NCBI RefSeq assembly: GCF_016865365.1
Contig: NZ_AP024469.1
Span: 1,665,001-1,729,000 of the forward strand
DNA: 64,000 bases
Origin: Geobacter sp. SVR
GTDB lineage: Bacteria; Desulfobacterota; Desulfuromonadia; Geobacterales; Pseudopelobacteraceae
Reading direction: 5' to 3'
Both the position numbers and the translations under genes were made by a program. This document shows, piece after piece, positions 338-62,995 of the stretch (within the stretch, counting starts at the first letter, position 1; every line of letters starts with the position of its first letter). Below the pieces are notes generated by a model. The model did no database searches, was not told the origin of the DNA, and saw only the letters and a list, made by a program, of their open reading frames with translations.

Positions 338-508
338 GGCGGCCAATATAGTTCATATGCACGACATAATATGTCGTACTCTGTTTGCAGTTCAAAATAG
401 CGGAAAAGTTTCATACGGCGTGCCCGGAATATGATAGCATTGCGCGACGCTCACGGTGGCGGAAATACTGCCCGAGAACAATCTCGGAAGGGAATATATC
501 ACACTCGT

Positions 509-14609: not shown

Positions 14610-15545
14610 CTACGGCTCAGTAGGCAGTGTCGCATCCGCATTCCATTCAGCCCAGGAACCATCGTAGTTGCTGACATCGTAACCCATGAGCCGGAATATG
14701 AAATACTCCTGCCCGGAACGGTATCCCACGTAGCAGTGGGTAATTACTTTTTTATCCAGGGTGATTCCTTTGCCGTTCAGCAGCGCCTTGAGATCGTCGT
14801 AGGATTTGACCGCGTTGTCGGCGTTCAGGAAATCACCGTTCAAAATATTGATGGCATTGGGGATATGCTTGGCACTATAGGGCAGCATGGTCCCGGTTTT
14901 GGTGCCGGTCGGGTCTGTGGCATCCCGGGAATCGACAATCGCATAGCTGCTTCTGTTACTGTAATTGGCCAGCACGATCGCCTTGGTGGCAAGTTTGGTG
15001 TCATCCACTGCCGGAACAAAGGTTGCTGCCGTCGGCACCGGCACCGTTGTCACCGTGGCCCTGATATCGCCGACCCAGTTGTCGTAACCGCCATTCAGGA
15101 TGTGTACATCCTTGGCCCCCAGGTACTCCAGCATCCAGAAAACACGGCCGGCACTGGCATCCACTGTTTTGCCGTACACCACAATACGGGAGTTGGCCGA
15201 GATTCCGGCATTACCAAGTATGGTGGCAATATCCGCGGGGGTTTTCAGGTCGCTGCTATCCACACCGGAGCCACCCTTGTCGAATGTCCCCGGGGTCAGG
15301 TTGACTGCTTTTGCGATATGTCCGGCAGCGTAATCGGTGGCACTTCTCACATCAATAACAACCAGGTTGACATCGTTGAGCCCCGCTGCCAATTCATCGA
15401 CACTGACCAGTAATGCGCTGTTTTTATACGTCTCCGGCGCCGATGTCAGTACTGTGGCACTGCTGCCGCACCCCGTAATCACTGCCATGCACAGGGTGAC
15501 ACTCGCAACCAGAACTACCCATCCAAATCGTGCTGCTGCCTTCAT
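14610..15545 (-). CDS. Rhodanese-domain lipoprotein
   Basis: 311 residues. The signal ends in the lipobox VITGCGSS. Two rhodanese domains follow: VIDVRSATDYAAGHI with the Cys-free loop VVYGKTVDASAGR, then IVDSRDATDPTG and the Cys loop THCYVGYRSGQEY. ATG at 15545 with GGAGG upstream; an in-frame extension to 15668 adds a non-signal tail and is not preferred. It is expected at a membrane face, possibly handling sulfane sulfur. Rhodanese lipoproteins are components of some Geobacter outer-membrane conduits (ExtF, ExtH); similarity of role is inferred. Confidence 0.85.
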   Translation of the reverse strand: MKAAARFGWVVLVASVTLCMAVITGCGSSATVLTSAPETYKNSALLVSVDELAAGLNDVNLVVIDVRSATDYAAGHIAKAVNLTPGTFDKGGSGVDSSDLKTPADIATILGNAGISANSRIVVYGKTVDASAGRVFWMLEYLGAKDVHILNGGYDNWVGDIRATVTTVPVPTAATFVPAVDDTKLATKAIVLANYSNRSSYAIVDSRDATDPTGTKTGTMLPYSAKHIPNAINILNGDFLNADNAVKSYDDLKALLNGKGITLDKKVITHCYVGYRSGQEYFIFRLMGYDVSNYDGSWAEWNADATLPTEP

Positions 15546-15779
15546 AACTGCCTCCTTCCAGTAATATCGGGTAATCCCCGGCAAAAGGGGGGTACGGTAG
15601 CAAAGCCCGAAACTGGAAGTCAAATTATCATTACCGCGTGTTTTGTCAGTTTTTATTGAAAATACCAATAGTTAAGCGTTTTAAATATGCGGTGTAAACA
15701 GTTTGTAGAGCAGTCAGCGATCGACATCCCACAGGATACGACCGTGGCGTATTGCCATTGTTTTCCCGTCGTCTGCACG

Positions 15780-16763
15780 TCAGGGATTGGTTCCTGTTGA
15801 GATGGGATATTTATAGGTAATTCCATCGGGTTTGAGAGCAGCGCTCCACTCACCCCATGAGCCGGTGTAATTTTTTACCCTGGTGAAGCCCAGCCCCAGC
15901 AACGTGTCGGATGTATAGGAGGAGCGCACCCCGGCCTGGCAATAGATGATGATTTCCTTGTCGGGAGTGATGCCATGCTGTTGCAGCAGTTCCAGTATCT
16001 CGGAAGGGCTCTTCAGGACATACACGCCATTGCTGGTCGGCTGCTGCAGATTCGTCCAGTCGAGGCTGACGGCATAGGGGATGTGGCCTCCTCTCGGGTT
16101 GGTGCGCAGGTCATAGCCGATATACTCCAACACCGAGCGGGAATCCCAGATTACGATTCCGGGGGTATTGATGCGGGCCAGGACGTAATCGGCGCTGACA
16201 TCGATGTCGGCTGTATTGGTGACCACGTACGAAGTTGCGTTGGGGATAGGCAGGTTTGCGGCGGTTTCGGTCGGGCGTCCCTCAGCTGCCCATTTCTGGT
16301 AGCCGCCGTCCAGTATGGCGACATTTTTATGTCCGTAGCGGAGCAGTGTCCAGACAAAGCGGCCGACCGAGGAGCTGTTGTCCGTATCGTAGGCAACGAC
16401 TTTTGTTGACGGGGTGATGCCCAGGGTGTCGGCCAGGGCAATGAATTCTGCCTGGGTCAGGCCGAGGGTTCCGGCAGAACCGGTTGCCGTGGGTGTAGTC
16501 GAGTTAATCGAAACGGTATTGCGGATGGCTCCCGGAATGTGCCCGGCATTATACAGGGCCGCAGAACGGACATCCACGACCAGAATGTTCTGCCGGTCAG
16601 CGCTCAGGGTATCGGTAGTGGTGAAGGTTTCGACGTTTTTGGCAACCGCTGCCGGTGCGTTTGTTGTGGACGTCGATTCCACCGAGCTTCCGCATCCTCC
16701 CAGGAGTGCCGAGCCAGAAAGGACTACTGCTGTCAGCATGGTGATTACTGCTCTTGATTTCAT
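15780..16763 (-). CDS. Rhodanese-domain lipoprotein, second copy
   Basis: 327 residues. Lipobox ALLGGCGSS. Domain one has VVDVRSAALYNAGHIPGAIR and a Cys-free loop VAYDTDNSSSVGRF. Domain two has WDSRSVLEYIGYD and the active loop IIYCQAGVRSSYTS. It is clearly paralogous in layout to the lipoprotein gene 234 bp downstream. The transcript begins about 300 bases upstream at a good sigma-70 promoter and includes a structured leader with a terminator (16941-17079), so expression is probably attenuated. Confidence 0.85.
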   Translation of the reverse strand: MKSRAVITMLTAVVLSGSALLGGCGSSVESTSTTNAPAAVAKNVETFTTTDTLSADRQNILVVDVRSAALYNAGHIPGAIRNTVSINSTTPTATGSAGTLGLTQAEFIALADTLGITPSTKVVAYDTDNSSSVGRFVWTLLRYGHKNVAILDGGYQKWAAEGRPTETAANLPIPNATSYVVTNTADIDVSADYVLARINTPGIVIWDSRSVLEYIGYDLRTNPRGGHIPYAVSLDWTNLQQPTSNGVYVLKSPSEILELLQQHGITPDKEIIIYCQAGVRSSYTSDTLLGLGFTRVKNYTGSWGEWSAALKPDGITYKYPISTGTNP

Positions 16764-16940
16764 TTGTGCTATTCTCTCCTTTAGCCGCGGTTCAGGCGGC
16801 GCCTGTATTTTTCTTCATTCATACCCGGTCATCCGAAAGACAGCACTTCCATGCAAATACACCATGCCGCCAGCTCCGGGGTTCTCCCTGTCATTTTCGC
16901 TCTCCTTTCCGATGGTCTTCAGCGGCCGCAAAAACAAAAA

Positions 16941-17079
16941 GGCCATGTTCTATCTCCCGGGGAGATAAACATGGCCTCCAGTTTTTCTGGTCAGCTGTGA
17001 ATATACGCGAGCGCAATCCCCATCCGTGAGGGAAGGAGTGCGGGTTCTGCCTTTCGGACGGGTGACCGACCGAAAAATA
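16941..17079 (-). promoter_or_regulatory. Leader RNA element with built-in terminator (copy 1), candidate riboswitch/attenuator
   Basis: Read on the minus strand: a 5' hairpin (17053-17074, TTCGG paired with CCGAA), a second hairpin CCC-TCACGG-GGG (17018-17032), then GCTGACCAGAAAAACTGGAG merging into a strong terminator stem (16941-16976) followed by a T-rich run. The same order, spacing and 3' module recur at 21415-21547, and the 3' module recurs at 19780-19835. The module's last bases (GGCC) are shared with the terminator stem, so alternative pairing is possible. No known riboswitch class was recognised. Confidence 0.6.
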
Positions 17080-17085
17080 TGGTGT

Positions 17086-17114
17086 TGTATAACAGACGCG
17101 AAATCGCCTGTCAA
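17086..17114 (-). promoter_or_regulatory. Sigma-70 promoter of leader copy 1
   Basis: Minus strand: TTGACA at 17114-17109, a 17-base spacer, then TATACA at 17091-17086. The predicted transcription start is near 17079, just before the first conserved hairpin. The homologous leader at 21547 has the same promoter with the same spacing. Confidence 0.75.
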
Positions 17115-17326
17115 TAAATTAAATATATTGTCTATTGATTTTGTAGTGTTTTTTAATGACCGGCAAAAGCTGGGTGCGCGGTAAAGTGGGGAAGCGCCGG
17201 AATGCGTGGCTTGGCATGGTTTGCCAGGTCGATAGGGTGTCCGGAAACATTTGTTTGGTATTGAGGAGAGAGCGAGGCTGAGAGTGGATTCCCAGTCTCG
17301 CGTTCCGGAAGGCAATTATCTTTGGA

Positions 17327-17893
17327 TCAATGGCAGGGCAGCATGTTGGCAATGGCAAGGATGGTGTCATCGGTCAGGTAGGAGAGCGTACCCATTCCCC
17401 CGGTGTTGCTCGCGATGGCCGCCTTGATGTTGTTGGGTGTGCCATTGGTGATGGAAGTGGCCGTAACCGGTCCATGACATCCTGCGCAGAGGGTGCTGTA
17501 GAGATTGGCACCATCCGTGGCAGCCACTGTCGCCGCCTGGCTCGATGCAGGGCTTTCCACACCGTGGCTGACGGCGGTAACAACATAGAAATATGTCTTG
17601 CTTACAAAAAGGCCCTCATGAACATAGGGGCTGGTAACCCCGGCGATTTTGGTCCCGGTTGCGGGTGACGGTCCGGGAGTGTCCGACCAGTAAATATTGT
17701 ATGAATCGGCACCGGCAACAGGATTCCAGGAAAGGGTGATCTTGTTGATGCCGCTTGTCGCCGTCACATCGGCCGGTGCAGCCGCAACCTTGGCGGCTGC
17801 TGCCGCTCCCCCGGAGCCGTCTCCACAGCCAGCCAGCATGAAAACGCTTAGCAGCAGGCAGGCCAGCGAGATGTGAATGATCGTTCTTTTCAT
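17327..17893 (-). CDS. FN3-domain monoheme cytochrome c lipoprotein
   Basis: 188 residues. Lipobox VFMLAGCGDG, one fibronectin type III domain (ITLSWNPVAGADSYNIYWSD to YFYVVTAVS), then a short cytochrome c domain with one heme site CAGCH and a distal GGMGTLSYLTDD segment, which may supply the Met ligand. ATG at 17893 chosen for the signal peptide. The heme domain matches the end of the larger lipoprotein at 19936-21366, so the two are paralogues. Likely an outer-surface or periplasmic electron carrier. Confidence 0.85.
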   Translation of the reverse strand: MKRTIIHISLACLLLSVFMLAGCGDGSGGAAAAAKVAAAPADVTATSGINKITLSWNPVAGADSYNIYWSDTPGPSPATGTKIAGVTSPYVHEGLFVSKTYFYVVTAVSHGVESPASSQAATVAATDGANLYSTLCAGCHGPVTATSITNGTPNNIKAAIASNTGGMGTLSYLTDDTILAIANMLPCH

Positions 17894-17946
17894 TACGCTT
17901 CCTTTCTCTGAAGTGAAAATTCCCTTCAACCTATGCCGGTTAAACG

Positions 17947-17985
17947 GTGCGCGCCCGTTCCCTTTTTCAGGAAGCGGGCGCGCGT
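17947..17985 (-). terminator. Rho-independent terminator after the propeller lipoprotein gene
   Basis: An inverted repeat of gcgcgcccg-type arms around a short A/T-rich loop lies 20-60 bases past the stop at 18004 on the minus strand. It separates that gene from the FN3-cytochrome gene. The T run after it is weak. Confidence 0.55.
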
Positions 17986-18003
17986 TTATCTACCCTGCGG
18001 GTG

Positions 18004-19713
18004 CTAATCTCCGTTCACACCGGGAAACAGGACACCGTGGGGGTTCCAGCCGATCTTGAGGCTGTCTCCGACCTTGGTGACGCTGGGGGTGGCATTGGAC
18101 AGACCGCTGGTGTCGAGCTTGATCAGCCATCCCTGGCCGTCGGCATCCGCGCTGACCGCATAGTACAACAGCCCTGTGGTCGGATCCCATCCGGCATGGC
18201 TGCCGCCGTATCCCGGGTGGTTATAGTGCAGGATATCCTTGATCTTGGTCGGATCGGGGGTGGCGGTGAGCAGGGTGGAGATGTCGATGAACTGCAGCAG
18301 GCTGGCCGGGTCGCCGGGGGTGATATCGCAATCCGCTGCGGTGGATTCCGTGGAAATCAGGTACTTGCCATCCGGAGAAATGGCGAAGTTATGCGGGCGA
18401 CCCGGTATGGTGGCGATGATCTTGGGCGGATTGGCGGTAAGATCGATGACGTTCACCCCTGAGGTGGAAGTCTTGCCGGTCGGTACCGGCCAGGTATTGT
18501 TCCCGGCAAACAGATACTTGCCGCTGGGGTGCAGACGCAGGGCATGGATGTTGCCGTAGCCGAAGTCCACATCCAGGACTTTGTTCAGATTGAGCGTGGT
18601 CCTGGTGGCGGTGTCCGTGGTGGACTCGGCCGCAGTGGCCAGGCCCGAGATATCGTAGCCCACCACATGGTAGGAACCGGCCGTGGAGGTGTAATAGGTC
18701 TTGTTGTCCGCGGAAACCGCGCCTACGTGGGGAGCGGTATTGCCATTGGTGATATTGCCCAGATAGGCCTTCTTTTCCACATCAAACACATTGACCCCTT
18801 TGGGGGACTGATCGGACGAGATAAAGACATACTTCCCGCTGGGGGACTGAACGTTCTGCACGCCGCATCCCACGGTCCAGGATTTCTTGATCAGCGTCGC
18901 CTTGTTGCTGTCGTTGAGGGTGCTGTAGTTCTTGAAGCCGACCAGATCGAATACGTTCACGTCGCCGGTGGCGCCGCCGGCCTTGTTGGTGCACAGCCAC
19001 AGCTCGGAGCCGTCGGTGTTGACGTTGCCGAAATGGTTGACCCTCACGCCGGGCAGATTGGTGAACCGGACGGTTTTTGTCACGGTTTTGGCTACACGGT
19101 CGATGATCGAGAAACCGGGCGTAGCGGTTCCGGAACCGCCGGTGTTGATCACGTAGCCGACGGCCAGATTGGGCAGCACTTCACCCTGCACATCGGCAAC
19201 CTTGGCAGCAACAGCGGCGAGGGTGGTACCATTGTGAAGCACGCCGCCGTCACCCAGTACACCGCCGTGAGCCAGATCAGCGGACACTTTGGTGACAACC
19301 ACATCCGAATTCGGACCGATGGCCTTGCCGGAAAGCGTAGCGCCAACCGTCAGCGTATCGGTGACCAGCAGACGGTAGGCTTTGCTGTTGGTGGTGAGGG
19401 TCGCTTTCAGAATGACCCCGGCTTGAGTGGTGGGAGGGGTGACATTGAGGCTGAAGGTTCCGTCGGCATTGATGTTGGCATCGGCGGTGCTGATCACGTT
19501 ACCGGTGGCGGCATCAATGGCCTTGACCGTGCCGATGGCGCCGGTCGCCGCTGCCGCCGTTTTCAGCGTAACCTTGCTGGCGCCCGGTTCCAAAGCCCCG
19601 CTGATAGTGGCGGTCTTTGCCGCTGCCGGTGCGGAGCTGGAACTGCCGCAACCGGCCAGGCCCAGGGACACCACGGCCATGGCTGCAAGTAACAATCGTG
19701 ATACCTTTTTCAT
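18004..19713 (-). CDS. Beta-propeller lipoprotein (YVTN/lactonase-like)
   Basis: 569 residues. Lipobox LGLAGCGSS, then a carboxypeptidase-regulatory-like region (VKAIDAATGNVISTADAN), then repeated blades such as SPSGKYVFISSDQSPKGVNVFD, LHPSGKYLFAGN and AISPDGKYLISTES. These are YVTN-type propeller repeats, usually a scaffold for protein or ligand binding. No catalytic residues were identified. It lies between two FN3-monoheme lipoprotein genes on the same strand, suggesting one surface assembly. Its leader carries the third copy of the GCTGACC module and a terminator. Confidence 0.8.
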   Translation of the reverse strand: MKKVSRLLLAAMAVVSLGLAGCGSSSSAPAAAKTATISGALEPGASKVTLKTAAAATGAIGTVKAIDAATGNVISTADANINADGTFSLNVTPPTTQAGVILKATLTTNSKAYRLLVTDTLTVGATLSGKAIGPNSDVVVTKVSADLAHGGVLGDGGVLHNGTTLAAVAAKVADVQGEVLPNLAVGYVINTGGSGTATPGFSIIDRVAKTVTKTVRFTNLPGVRVNHFGNVNTDGSELWLCTNKAGGATGDVNVFDLVGFKNYSTLNDSNKATLIKKSWTVGCGVQNVQSPSGKYVFISSDQSPKGVNVFDVEKKAYLGNITNGNTAPHVGAVSADNKTYYTSTAGSYHVVGYDISGLATAAESTTDTATRTTLNLNKVLDVDFGYGNIHALRLHPSGKYLFAGNNTWPVPTGKTSTSGVNVIDLTANPPKIIATIPGRPHNFAISPDGKYLISTESTAADCDITPGDPASLLQFIDISTLLTATPDPTKIKDILHYNHPGYGGSHAGWDPTTGLLYYAVSADADGQGWLIKLDTSGLSNATPSVTKVGDSLKIGWNPHGVLFPGVNGD

Positions 19714-19779
19714 CTGTTCCTCCTATGGTTGATTTTCCTCCGGCGAAACCGGGGTACTGTCATGTCAGAAAAACAAAAA

Positions 19780-19835
19780 GGCCGGGAATAGCGCGCTCAG
19801 GGCGCATTACTCTCGGCCTCCGGTTTTTCCGGTCA
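19780..19835 (-). promoter_or_regulatory. Leader terminator with conserved GCTGACC module (copy 3)
   Basis: Minus strand: GCTGACCGGAAAAACCGGAG running into a terminator stem (19780-19818) with a T-rich tail, 67 bases before the start of the propeller lipoprotein. The module differs from copies 1 and 2 by compensating changes (CCGG/CCGG versus CCAG/CTGG). The upstream part is not similar to the other two; instead a long hairpin with arms gtgaaac/gtttcac lies at 19846-19893. It could also serve as the terminator of the upstream gene. Confidence 0.5.
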
Positions 19836-19935
19836 GCAGATTGTCGTGAAACATCGGTTCCTGTTGGTCGGGGCAGTTGGTACCGGTTTCACATCCGTTT
19901 CCCCCTTTGCTGGAGGGACAACAGAATACGAGATT

Positions 19936-21366
19936 TTAAAAACCAAGCACCTCGGCAATTGCCTGGACCTGCTCCGCCGCAAGCGTAGACAGGCTGCCCA
20001 TTCCGCCCTTGTTGGCCGTTATTGCCGCCTGGATCTGGGTTGCGGTTCTCCCCTTCTTCTCGGAGATTGCCAGCGGATTGTGGCATGAGGCACATTTGGC
20101 ACTGTACAGGGCCAAACCGTCGACGGTCGAGGTTGTGGCCGAAGCGATCTCCGATTCGCCGCTTTCACCGATGCTGTTCACTGCCGTGACAACATAGGCG
20201 TACGGGAGACCGGCGGTCAGGTTGGTGTGGCGGTACGGACTGGTAACACCGGCAATCTTCGCGGCCCCCATTTCTTTCATCACGTGAGTCGGGTCGTTGG
20301 TCCAGTAGATATTGTACGAGGTTGCTCCGCTGACCGGGCTCCAGGTGATAGTTGTCTGGTTGATGCCTCTCGAGGCGGATACACCGGCCGGTATTGCCGG
20401 AACTGTGGGAACAGCGGCGGGCGTGCTTGCGGACACCTGGCTCGACGCGGCACTCTCGCCGGTGCTGTTGACCGCGGTGACGATGTAGTAGTACGTACTG
20501 CCGGCGTTCAAGCCGGTGTGCATGTAATGGTGATCGTCGACAGCGGCGATTTTGGTACCAGTGCTTTTGGTGACGCCGCTGGTGGTTGACCAGTAGATGT
20601 TGTATGAGGTGGCACCGCTGACTGCTCCCCATGACAGGTGAACTGCATTTTCTTCAGCGGTAGCGGATACGCCGGCAGGAGTGGCAGGGGCATTCGGGAT
20701 GCCGGTCAACACGGCGGAGGGACTTACTGAAGCGGCGGCAACGGAAAGCAGCGTTACCGGGATGGCATCCCTGTTGCTGACGGTGATCCCACTATCCGGC
20801 CTGACACTGATAGTGTAGGAATCGAATACTGCATCTATCCCCTTACCGGCGGTGATGGTTCCGGTAAAGAAATCCGAGGCTGAGGCGCCGGCTGGCAGGA
20901 TGGCGGCCAGGGCTGTGGTGACCTTGGCAGCCTGGGCGGCATAGGTGGCGTTGATGTCGGAGAGTTTCTGGGCGTTCAGTCCGCTGAACAGCGCCTCCGG
21001 ATCCGGGTTTCCGGCGGCCAGGGCCACGACCGCGGTCGTGACGGGGTTTATGTTGGCTGTTCCGGCTGTTGGTGCAAGGGAGACATAGGTGCCGTTGGTG
21101 CCGGTCACGGTTACCAGAAACGGGGCCTTGAGGCCCGAAACATCGATGGAATAGACGCCGGTTGCAGCATCGGTCGTAGCTGCAGGGGCGGTCTTGTTCT
21201 CCGCGTCCCTGAGCTGCACGGTCTTGCCTTTGATCAGTGCTCCTTCGGAAGCGGTACCGGTCACCTTCGGGCTCCCCGCCGTCCCGGAGCCGCCGCACCC
21301 TGCGATCAGCAGCGCCCCTCCGATGATGTATCCCGCTGCCAGCCTGAATACGGTTCTCCTTGTCAT
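19936..21366 (-). CDS. Lipoprotein with two FN3 domains and a monoheme cytochrome domain
   Basis: 476 residues. Lipobox ALLIAGCGG. Residues about 30-230 include a carboxypeptidase-regulatory-like start (GKTVQLRDAENKTAPAATT). Two FN3 domains follow (HLSWGAVSGATSYNIYWS and ITWSPVSGATSYNIYWTN), then one heme site CASCH with a distal GGMGSLSTL segment. The C-terminal third is homologous to the 188-residue protein at 17327-17893. Probably a surface-exposed electron carrier or redox adhesin. Expression is likely set by the leader element that ends 48 bases before its start. Confidence 0.85.
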   Translation of the reverse strand: MTRRTVFRLAAGYIIGGALLIAGCGGSGTAGSPKVTGTASEGALIKGKTVQLRDAENKTAPAATTDAATGVYSIDVSGLKAPFLVTVTGTNGTYVSLAPTAGTANINPVTTAVVALAAGNPDPEALFSGLNAQKLSDINATYAAQAAKVTTALAAILPAGASASDFFTGTITAGKGIDAVFDSYTISVRPDSGITVSNRDAIPVTLLSVAAASVSPSAVLTGIPNAPATPAGVSATAEENAVHLSWGAVSGATSYNIYWSTTSGVTKSTGTKIAAVDDHHYMHTGLNAGSTYYYIVTAVNSTGESAASSQVSASTPAAVPTVPAIPAGVSASRGINQTTITWSPVSGATSYNIYWTNDPTHVMKEMGAAKIAGVTSPYRHTNLTAGLPYAYVVTAVNSIGESGESEIASATTSTVDGLALYSAKCASCHNPLAISEKKGRTATQIQAAITANKGGMGSLSTLAAEQVQAIAEVLGF

Positions 21367-21414
21367 GCGTGTTCTCCTTCTCGTTGGTCTTCATCAACCG
21401 TAATAAATAAAAAA

Positions 21415-21547
21415 GGCCATGTTTATCTCGTGGGAGAGATAAACATGGCCTCCAGTTTTCTGGTCAGCTGTAAAGGTTCGTGAAAGCAATACCCGCCGTG
21501 AGGGGGAAGTGCGATCGGTCTTTCGTGCCGGGCACGGCCGAAGAATA
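21415..21547 (-). promoter_or_regulatory. Leader RNA element with built-in terminator (copy 2)
   Basis: Same layout as 16941-17079: 5' hairpin with GC-rich arms (21524-21536), hairpin CCC-TCACGGC-GGG (21492-21504), the GCTGACCAGAAAACTGGAGG module, then a terminator stem (21415-21450) with an A-rich plus strand giving a T-rich tail. The distance from the -10 box to the GCTGACC module is 86 bases here and 91 in copy 1. The upstream transporter gene has its own terminator at 21797-21840, so this one belongs to the downstream lipoprotein gene. Confidence 0.62.
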
Positions 21548-21553
21548 TGTGCT

Positions 21554-21582
21554 CGTATAGCAAATGAAAATTGCCGTGTCAA
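21554..21582 (-). promoter_or_regulatory. Sigma-70 promoter of leader copy 2
   Basis: Minus strand TTGACA (21582-21577), 17-base spacer, TATACG (21559-21554). The position relative to the conserved leader matches copy 1. Confidence 0.72.
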
Positions 21583-62691: not shown

Positions 62692-62768
62692 TGGCGGGGT
62701 TGACGGGGCTCGAACCCGCGACTTCCAGCGTGACAGGCTGGCACTCTAACCGACTGAGCTACAACCCC
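62692..62768 (-). tRNA. tRNA-Asp(GTC)
   Basis: 77 nt on the minus strand: acceptor GGGGTTG/CAACCCC, anticodon loop CTGTCAC (GTC), T arm GGTTCGAG, encoded CCA. Identical to the copy at 62919-62995. Confidence 0.96.
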
Positions 62769-62833
62769 TTATTCAGAGTTTACCTCTGATTTCGGAAAAA
62801 ACAGGGAAAGAGTTTTTCTTTCCCTGTGGTGTA

Positions 62834-62909
62834 TGGTGGGCGAAACAGGGATCGAACCTGTGACATCCAGCTTGTAAGGCTGGCGCTCTCCCAGCTGAGC
62901 TATTCGCCC
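62834..62909 (-). tRNA. tRNA-Val(TAC)
   Basis: 76 nt on the minus strand: acceptor GGGCGAA/TTCGCCC, anticodon loop CTTACAA (TAC), T arm GGTTCGAT, encoded CCA. Confidence 0.96.
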
Positions 62910-62918
62910 TTAAATTTA

Positions 62919-62995
62919 TGGCGGGGTTGACGGGGCTCGAACCCGCGACTTCCAGCGTGACAGGCTGGCACTCTAACCGACTGAGCTACAACCCC
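62919..62995 (-). tRNA. tRNA-Asp(GTC), second copy
   Basis: 77 nt, same as 62692-62768. The Asp-Val-Asp cluster is probably one transcript. Confidence 0.96.

Follow-up and report, generated by a model that had tools for sequence, protein, structure and literature searches.

In antitermination systems of the RAT/LicT-SacY-BglG type, a small RNA-binding protein stabilizes a short, imperfect hairpin whose sequence overlaps an intrinsic terminator at its 5′ foot. The target RNAs of ANTAR proteins (e.g., NasR, EutV, and GnfR) are also subject to protein-dependent antitermination at a hairpin adjoining the terminator, and they carry a pair of hairpins whose six-base loops have fixed bases. Three leader RNAs in a 64,000-nucleotide (nt) stretch of Geobacter sp. 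SVR (contig NZ_AP024469.1, positions 1,665,001 to 1,729,000, hereafter the window) hold an element with a similar layout, in which the stabilizing protein is proposed rather than established. The sequence of the element is unrelated to RAT, it precedes sulfur rather than sugar genes, and, unlike the ANTAR targets, it consists of one hairpin with a loop of mostly 4 to 5 nt. We consider it rather likely that these leaders carry a sulfur-regulon antitermination element worked by the small protein DUF2292 (YezD/OscA).

Sulfur-related leader RNAs of other kinds have been described. S-adenosylmethionine (SAM)-I (S-box) RNAs also control methionine and sulfur genes by termination, and Geobacter uses them for metX and metIC (PMC545781). 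The S-box structure differs from that of the element and is far larger, and cmscan yielded no match at any of the elements. The two systems are distinct and coexist: in one locus (L196), the distance between an element and a separate S-box is 1.4 kb. For methionine genes of betaproteobacteria, the metXZ element is a putative RNA of the terminator/antiterminator type (PMC4239095); unlike the element studied here, it has six conserved regions and a pseudoknot and occurs once per genome, at metX/metZ only. The HMP-PP (thiS) riboswitch resembles our element in that its recognition part is embedded in the terminator (PMC6478431), but its ligand is a thiamin precursor, and the elements give no Rfam match to it. 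On the protein side, OscA, a small protein whose function is unknown, is encoded in the same transcription unit as sbp (PMC2996968). Its loss affects chromate resistance, and it is tied to the sulfur starvation response (PMC2996968, PMC3596284); like the DUF2292 (PF10055) proteins considered below, it is encoded before sulfate uptake genes. Our literature search found no sulfur antiterminator, no DUF2292 mechanism, and no RNA partner of OscA/YezD.

Three leaders with a common 3′ module

The analysis is computational throughout; pattern- and model-based collection favors canonical copies, and starts of open reading frames (ORFs) are approximate. An initial annotation of the window had described paired leaders with a shared promoter, module, and terminator, and these features were recovered. 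Both leaders, L1 and L2, hold the module GCTGACC-RG-AAAA(A)-CYGG-AGGCC; at their 3′ ends, GCTGACCAG-AAAA(A)-CTGG-AGGCC leads into a long, strong, U-tailed hairpin. The two are 78% identical over 191 nt. The TTGACA-N17-TATAC sequences are present on the minus strand, with transcription start sites inferred from this promoter-like sequence. The third module copy, L3, precedes the gene at 19713..18004 and has CCGG/CCGG in place of CCAG/CTGG, a compensating change. The module pattern TGACCNGAAAAAC, with at most one mismatch, occurs three times in the window against 0.23 expected, two of the three lying within modules, and the final covariance model (R2) finds exactly three copies (60.7 to 64.3 bits). 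The leader features, all on the minus strand, are as follows.

16932..16998, minus strand: element L1, read directly from the sequence (R2, 64.3 bits, E 2e-17); imperfect hairpin 16995-16973, overlapping the terminator foot; terminator stem at about 16977-16940; U-tract 16940-16931
16999..17079, minus strand: 5′ part of leader L1 (two hairpins of the initial annotation), unconserved outside the Geobacter sp. SVR genome
17086..17114, minus strand: promoter-like TTGACA-N17-TATACA of leader L1, by consensus only
19771..19840, minus strand: element L3 (R2, 60.7 bits, E 3e-16), comprising the module, whose stem is the compensated CCGG/CCGG, and the terminator
21406..21471, minus strand: element L2 (R2, 62.0 bits, E 1e-16); imperfect hairpin 21468-21447, overlapping the terminator foot
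21472..21547, minus strand: 5′ part of leader L2, with no homologue in 75 family genomes
21554..21582, minus strand: promoter-like TTGACA-N17-TATACG of leader L2, by consensus only

The two 5′ hairpins were not confirmed as the aptamer-like domain for which they had been taken. The upstream parts alone fold weakly (z scores of -2.1 and -1.3), the minimum-energy fold of L1 lacks both hairpins, L3 has no such domain, and the upstream part was not found in the 75 other family genomes searched. Upstream of the other element copies the DNA is AT rich and partly promoter-like, with no common domain. The conserved signal is thus the 3′ module with its terminator and not the two upstream hairpins.

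A 22-nt hairpin that shares bases with the terminator

The element is a 22-nt imperfect hairpin, R1Y2Y3-G4A5-(4-bp P1 with an A-rich 4- to 5-nt loop)-A19-G20R21Y22, with a GA·A internal loop. A GC-rich hairpin and U-tract before a gene mark it as a rho-independent attenuator. On the 3′ side of the hairpin, A19 to Y22 double as the first pairs of the terminator beside the U-tract, so that the outer helix P0 (positions 1 to 3 with 20 to 22) and the terminator foot are mutually exclusive, and the P0 pairs 1-22, 2-21, and 3-20 give the element the form of a terminator/antiterminator switch.

In a 101-member alignment, P1 (6-9 with 15-18) is 100% paired with three of its four pairs compensated, and the terminator helix is 92.9% paired with compensation at 6 of 10 pairs; none of 500 shuffles matched this, and slid and shuffled controls were far lower. 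P0, for which the members had not been selected, pairs as GC in 80, AU in 15, GU in 4, and AC in 2 at R1-Y22 and as CG in 96 and UG in 5 at Y2-R21. Wider sampling adds a CG-to-UA change at Y2-R21 and a UA pair at the base of P1, the pairing percentages of that larger set being biased because its members were picked partly by pairing. A held-out Bacillota set (n = 71), collected with a model devoid of P0 pairs, forms the two P0 pairs in 67/71 and 71/71 members, better than shuffles, with U-A compensation at Y2-R21 and a P0 longer by one more pair. Y22 and R21 covary with both P0 and the terminator arm (i.e., three-way covariation). For 134 members, the fold with P0 closed is computed to be less stable than the terminated one by 6.5 ± 1.8 kcal/mol.

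By inspection, the observed variants conflict with reading the hairpin as a K-turn, a PyrR site, or a T-box-like structure, and these readings were set aside. A subgroup of elements, some just after metY, carries an extra stretch, CCGGGGTGAC...GCACCCACGGTG, directly 5′ of the hairpin (L046:7393-7452, L079:1637-1697, and L086:11563-11623).

Distribution of the element in two phyla

The covariance-model search proposed in the initial annotation found homologues with covarying stems and terminators across the family, the phylum, and the Bacillota, bearing out its view of a covarying transcription attenuator. The module pattern occurs in 37/76 family genomes, with almost no hits to the reversed pattern, and the covariance model (E ≤ 1e-7) places the element in 34/76, with 14 copies in the Geobacter sp. 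SVR genome; several further families of the same phylum also have true members. A genome-contig scan identified Geobacter, Geomonas, Oryzomonas, and Citrifermentans as carriers of the module and, unexpectedly, Heliobacterium chlorum, Heliobacterium mobile, Syntrophomonas, and Thermacetogenium. Copy numbers reach 17 to 19 in each Heliobacterium and up to 11 in Thermacetogenium, and at E ≤ 1e-6 the element is present in 43 of 398 sampled genomes of the Heliobacterium phylum, Bacillota (~10%). Matches of the phylum scan below ~30 bits, mostly plain terminators, were left out of these counts. A strict structural pattern yields 231 distinct copies in the DNA collected.

The initial annotation had looked for GEMM without finding it, and no family of Rfam 15 (GEMM/c-di-GMP, SAM, T-box, cobalamin, and others) reached its gathering score at the elements; at relaxed thresholds the window region was clean up to E ≤ 10. 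In Syntrophomonas, two divergent elements stand back to back (L045:190-255, minus strand, and 416-480, plus strand), one of them before a NifB-like gene.

Downstream genes form a sulfur regulon

A scan of 135 downstream ORFs found rhodanese (16), NifH-like (14), metK (9), NifB-like (9), and Rrf2/CymR (6) genes, followed by O-acetylhomoserine sulfhydrylase (5), sulfonate-type substrate-binding protein (5), DsrE (4), and cysK-type (3) genes, with URO-D/MtaA methyltransferases also among the commonest families. Other genes after elements include metY, sat, and genes for sulfate-binding proteins. Elements in Bacillota precede cysK, sat, and genes for a sulfate-binding protein, cystine- and methionine-type ABC ATPases, NifB-like proteins, and sulfhydrylase-type enzymes, and neighborhoods in both phyla have nitrogenase-like, corrinoid methyltransferase, and sulfonate transport genes in common. 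The element regulon is therefore one of sulfur acquisition, assimilation, and salvage, instead of one of c-type cytochrome or lipoprotein genes, and it does not reflect control of cytochromes by cyclic dinucleotides.

The NifB/NifH-like genes prompted the idea of nitrogen fixation control through ANTAR (GnfR), which was rejected, as the element has no ANTAR features. Because they cluster with cysK, metY, and sulfonate transporter genes, we read them as nitrogenase-like systems for sulfur salvage. In Heliobacterium mobile, a 53-kb region (L166-L168) holds several nitrogenase-like component 1 genes, several with their own element, beside cysK, metY, and sulfonate transporter genes, and these are possibly several methylthio-alkane-reductase-like systems. 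A divergent radical-SAM-like protein (weak Pfam match) with a small PNPOx-like partner is encoded at L181:829-2106, with Geobacter homologues (e.g., L092:10826-12100); an element stands before the pair in Geobacter, the pair adjoins metK in Syntrophomonas, and it is probably sulfur related.

Association of the element with DUF2292

Neighborhood comparison showed that a protein of 55 to 65 amino acids encoded directly upstream of many elements is DUF2292 (PF10055). These proteins match the NCBIfam model "sulfur starvation response protein OscA," at scores below its cutoff. The gene lies outside the window, with two copies elsewhere in the Geobacter sp. SVR genome, near C1:1823165 and C1:2624924. 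Among 80 genomes picked by element status before the DUF2292 search, the domain was found in 38/40 element-positive genomes versus 3/40 element-negative genomes (Fisher test, 1.5e-16, which is not a strict probability because the genomes are related). The pattern is the same in Geobacterales (19/20 versus 1/20) and in Bacillota (19/20 versus 2/20). Among the exceptions, genome G610 carries an element scoring 33.5 bits at a distance of 1.3 kb from the gene for DUF2292. In element-positive Geobacterales, an element starts 51 to 103 nt after the domain on the same strand for 21 of 27 DUF2292 genes. As a test of prediction, we took a locus of Cytobacillus spongiae that had been found by protein only. 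Here yezD is the first gene of a cysH-sat-cysC-sulfite reductase operon, and an element is located precisely at its stop codon (35.3 bits, E 1e-8). Both co-occurrence and gene adjacency are thus as expected for DUF2292-dependent antitermination.

AlphaFold predicts an alpha-beta-beta unit for DUF2292 (predicted local distance difference test [pLDDT] score, 81; 70 for the tandem form). Some Bacillota carry two DUF2292 repeats in one protein (L232:4961-5374, L238:2664-3062, L222:1929-2309, L239, L240, and L241), which suggests a dimer. A C-terminal tail ending in DGxGI is common to these tandem proteins and the single-domain proteins of Geobacterales.

Proposed mechanism and its weighing

The terminator would form by default, as P0 costs ~6.5 kcal/mol. 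When sulfur is short, YezD would bind the hairpin and hold P0 closed; this would remove the base of the terminator, and RNA polymerase would read into the genes for sulfur uptake, assimilation, and salvage. An intrinsic terminator deprived of its pairs beside the U-tract should no longer terminate. In many operons yezD is the first gene, just upstream of the element. Because most elements have no adjacent yezD, the protein is assumed to act in trans on a large number of operons, those of the three window elements among them. The evidence points to a small protein, DUF2292, as the likely effector and away from an aptamer for a metabolite or control by a cyclic dinucleotide; the initial annotation thus stands as to the covarying attenuator but probably not as to its candidate ligands. 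It also seems probable that DUF2292/OscA/YezD proteins constitute a new antiterminator family of very small RNA-binding proteins, forming with the hairpin a global trans-acting sulfur starvation switch common to the Geobacter phylum and Bacillota.

If so, up to ~20 operons per genome (sulfate, sulfonate, methionine, cysteine, methyl-sulfur salvage, and sulfur transfer) would be under one RNA-based switch that is not in Rfam. The model offers a testable function for DUF2292, described to date as a sulfur starvation protein of unknown function, and would give OscA a molecular activity. The element by itself would predict new sulfur genes, such as those for the rhodanese and heme lipoproteins of the window, and the mechanism suggests that 3 to 4 bp at the base of a terminator can suffice to switch a gene.

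Several observations weigh against DUF2292 as the effector. Two element-positive genomes, G034 and G546, gave no DUF2292 match, and two to three genomes have DUF2292 and no clear element. yezD lies within 300 nt of 35/222 elements, and most, including the three of the window, have none nearby. No element was found at DUF2292 loci of Novosphingobium (two, plasmid borne and alphaproteobacterial) and Paenibacillus cellulosilyticus (one), which makes DUF2292 broader than the RNA; these loci may use another RNA or mechanism. The co-occurrence could also reflect joint inheritance of a sulfur module. The DUF2292 fold has no significant relative in PDB by sequence or fold and no known RNA-binding relative, and the model is a computational prediction in each of its parts, i.e., binding, expression, and termination. 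The element-free DUF2292 genes (L257:3926-4108, L256:3935-4096, and L258:3938-4207) adjoin sulfate ABC transporter genes.

Among the alternatives, the hairpin might be a minimal riboswitch that binds a sulfur metabolite (e.g., O-acetylserine, cysteine, or SAM) with no protein involved, DUF2292 merely belonging to the same regulon. A sulfur regulon with a terminator is what such a riboswitch would control, the internal-loop bases and a U-G wobble are conserved in both phyla, and terminator-embedded aptamers exist in the HMP-PP class (PMC6478431). However, the hairpin is only 22 nt long, its apical loop varies, the sequence upstream of it is not conserved, and the riboswitch leaves the DUF2292 co-occurrence and adjacency unexplained; we consider it unlikely.

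Still less probable is an effector that is some other RNA-binding protein (ANTAR, Rrf2/CymR-like, or of another kind). ANTAR domains are encoded in 11 of 12 element-positive genomes, a count that covers element-positive genomes only, and six elements precede Rrf2/CymR-like genes; yet paired hexaloops, the signature of ANTAR targets, are missing from the element, whose loops are mostly 4 to 5 nt long and A rich, and Rrf2 proteins are, to our knowledge, DNA-binding regulators. A CAT/LicT regulator was rejected, as CAT_RBD (PF03123) was missing from all 12 element-positive genomes, with E. coli and B. subtilis controls positive.

That the CCRG-N5-CYGG palindrome serves a dimeric repressor as its DNA operator is very improbable: P1 is palindromic as DNA, but pair 8-16 tolerates G-U and never shows A-C (AU 65, GC 31, GU 6, AC 0), the asymmetric flanks covary with the terminator arm, and the palindrome adjoins a terminator in nearly every copy. 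We give next to no credence to the initial idea of an aptamer for a cyclic dinucleotide or other signal in the two upstream hairpins controlling the terminator, since L1 and L2 have parts of that region in common but the third copy and 75 related genomes do not have it, no Rfam family matches, and the regulon is one of sulfur.

Genes and other features of the window

The genes downstream of the three elements, and a further lipoprotein gene, are as follows.

14610..15668, minus strand: second rhodanese-like lipoprotein (ORF; similarity by eye), probably in one transcription unit with 15780..16763
15780..16763, minus strand: rhodanese-domain lipoprotein downstream of L1 (ORF; Pfam PF00581, 8e-35)
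18004..19713, minus strand: lipoprotein downstream of L3 (ORF), with repeated beta-propeller-like sequence by eye and no match in a Pfam scan
19936..21366, minus strand: FN3/monoheme-type lipoprotein downstream of L2 (ORF; domains read by eye)

Between L1 and the rhodanese gene, a 21-codon ORF (16894-16829, minus strand) with a Shine-Dalgarno-like GGAGAG encodes MTGRTPELAAWCICMEVLSFG; it contains two Cys codons plus an additional Met codon and may be a leader peptide. Elsewhere in the window, Rfam identifies three adjacent tRNA genes at 62695-62995 on the minus strand.

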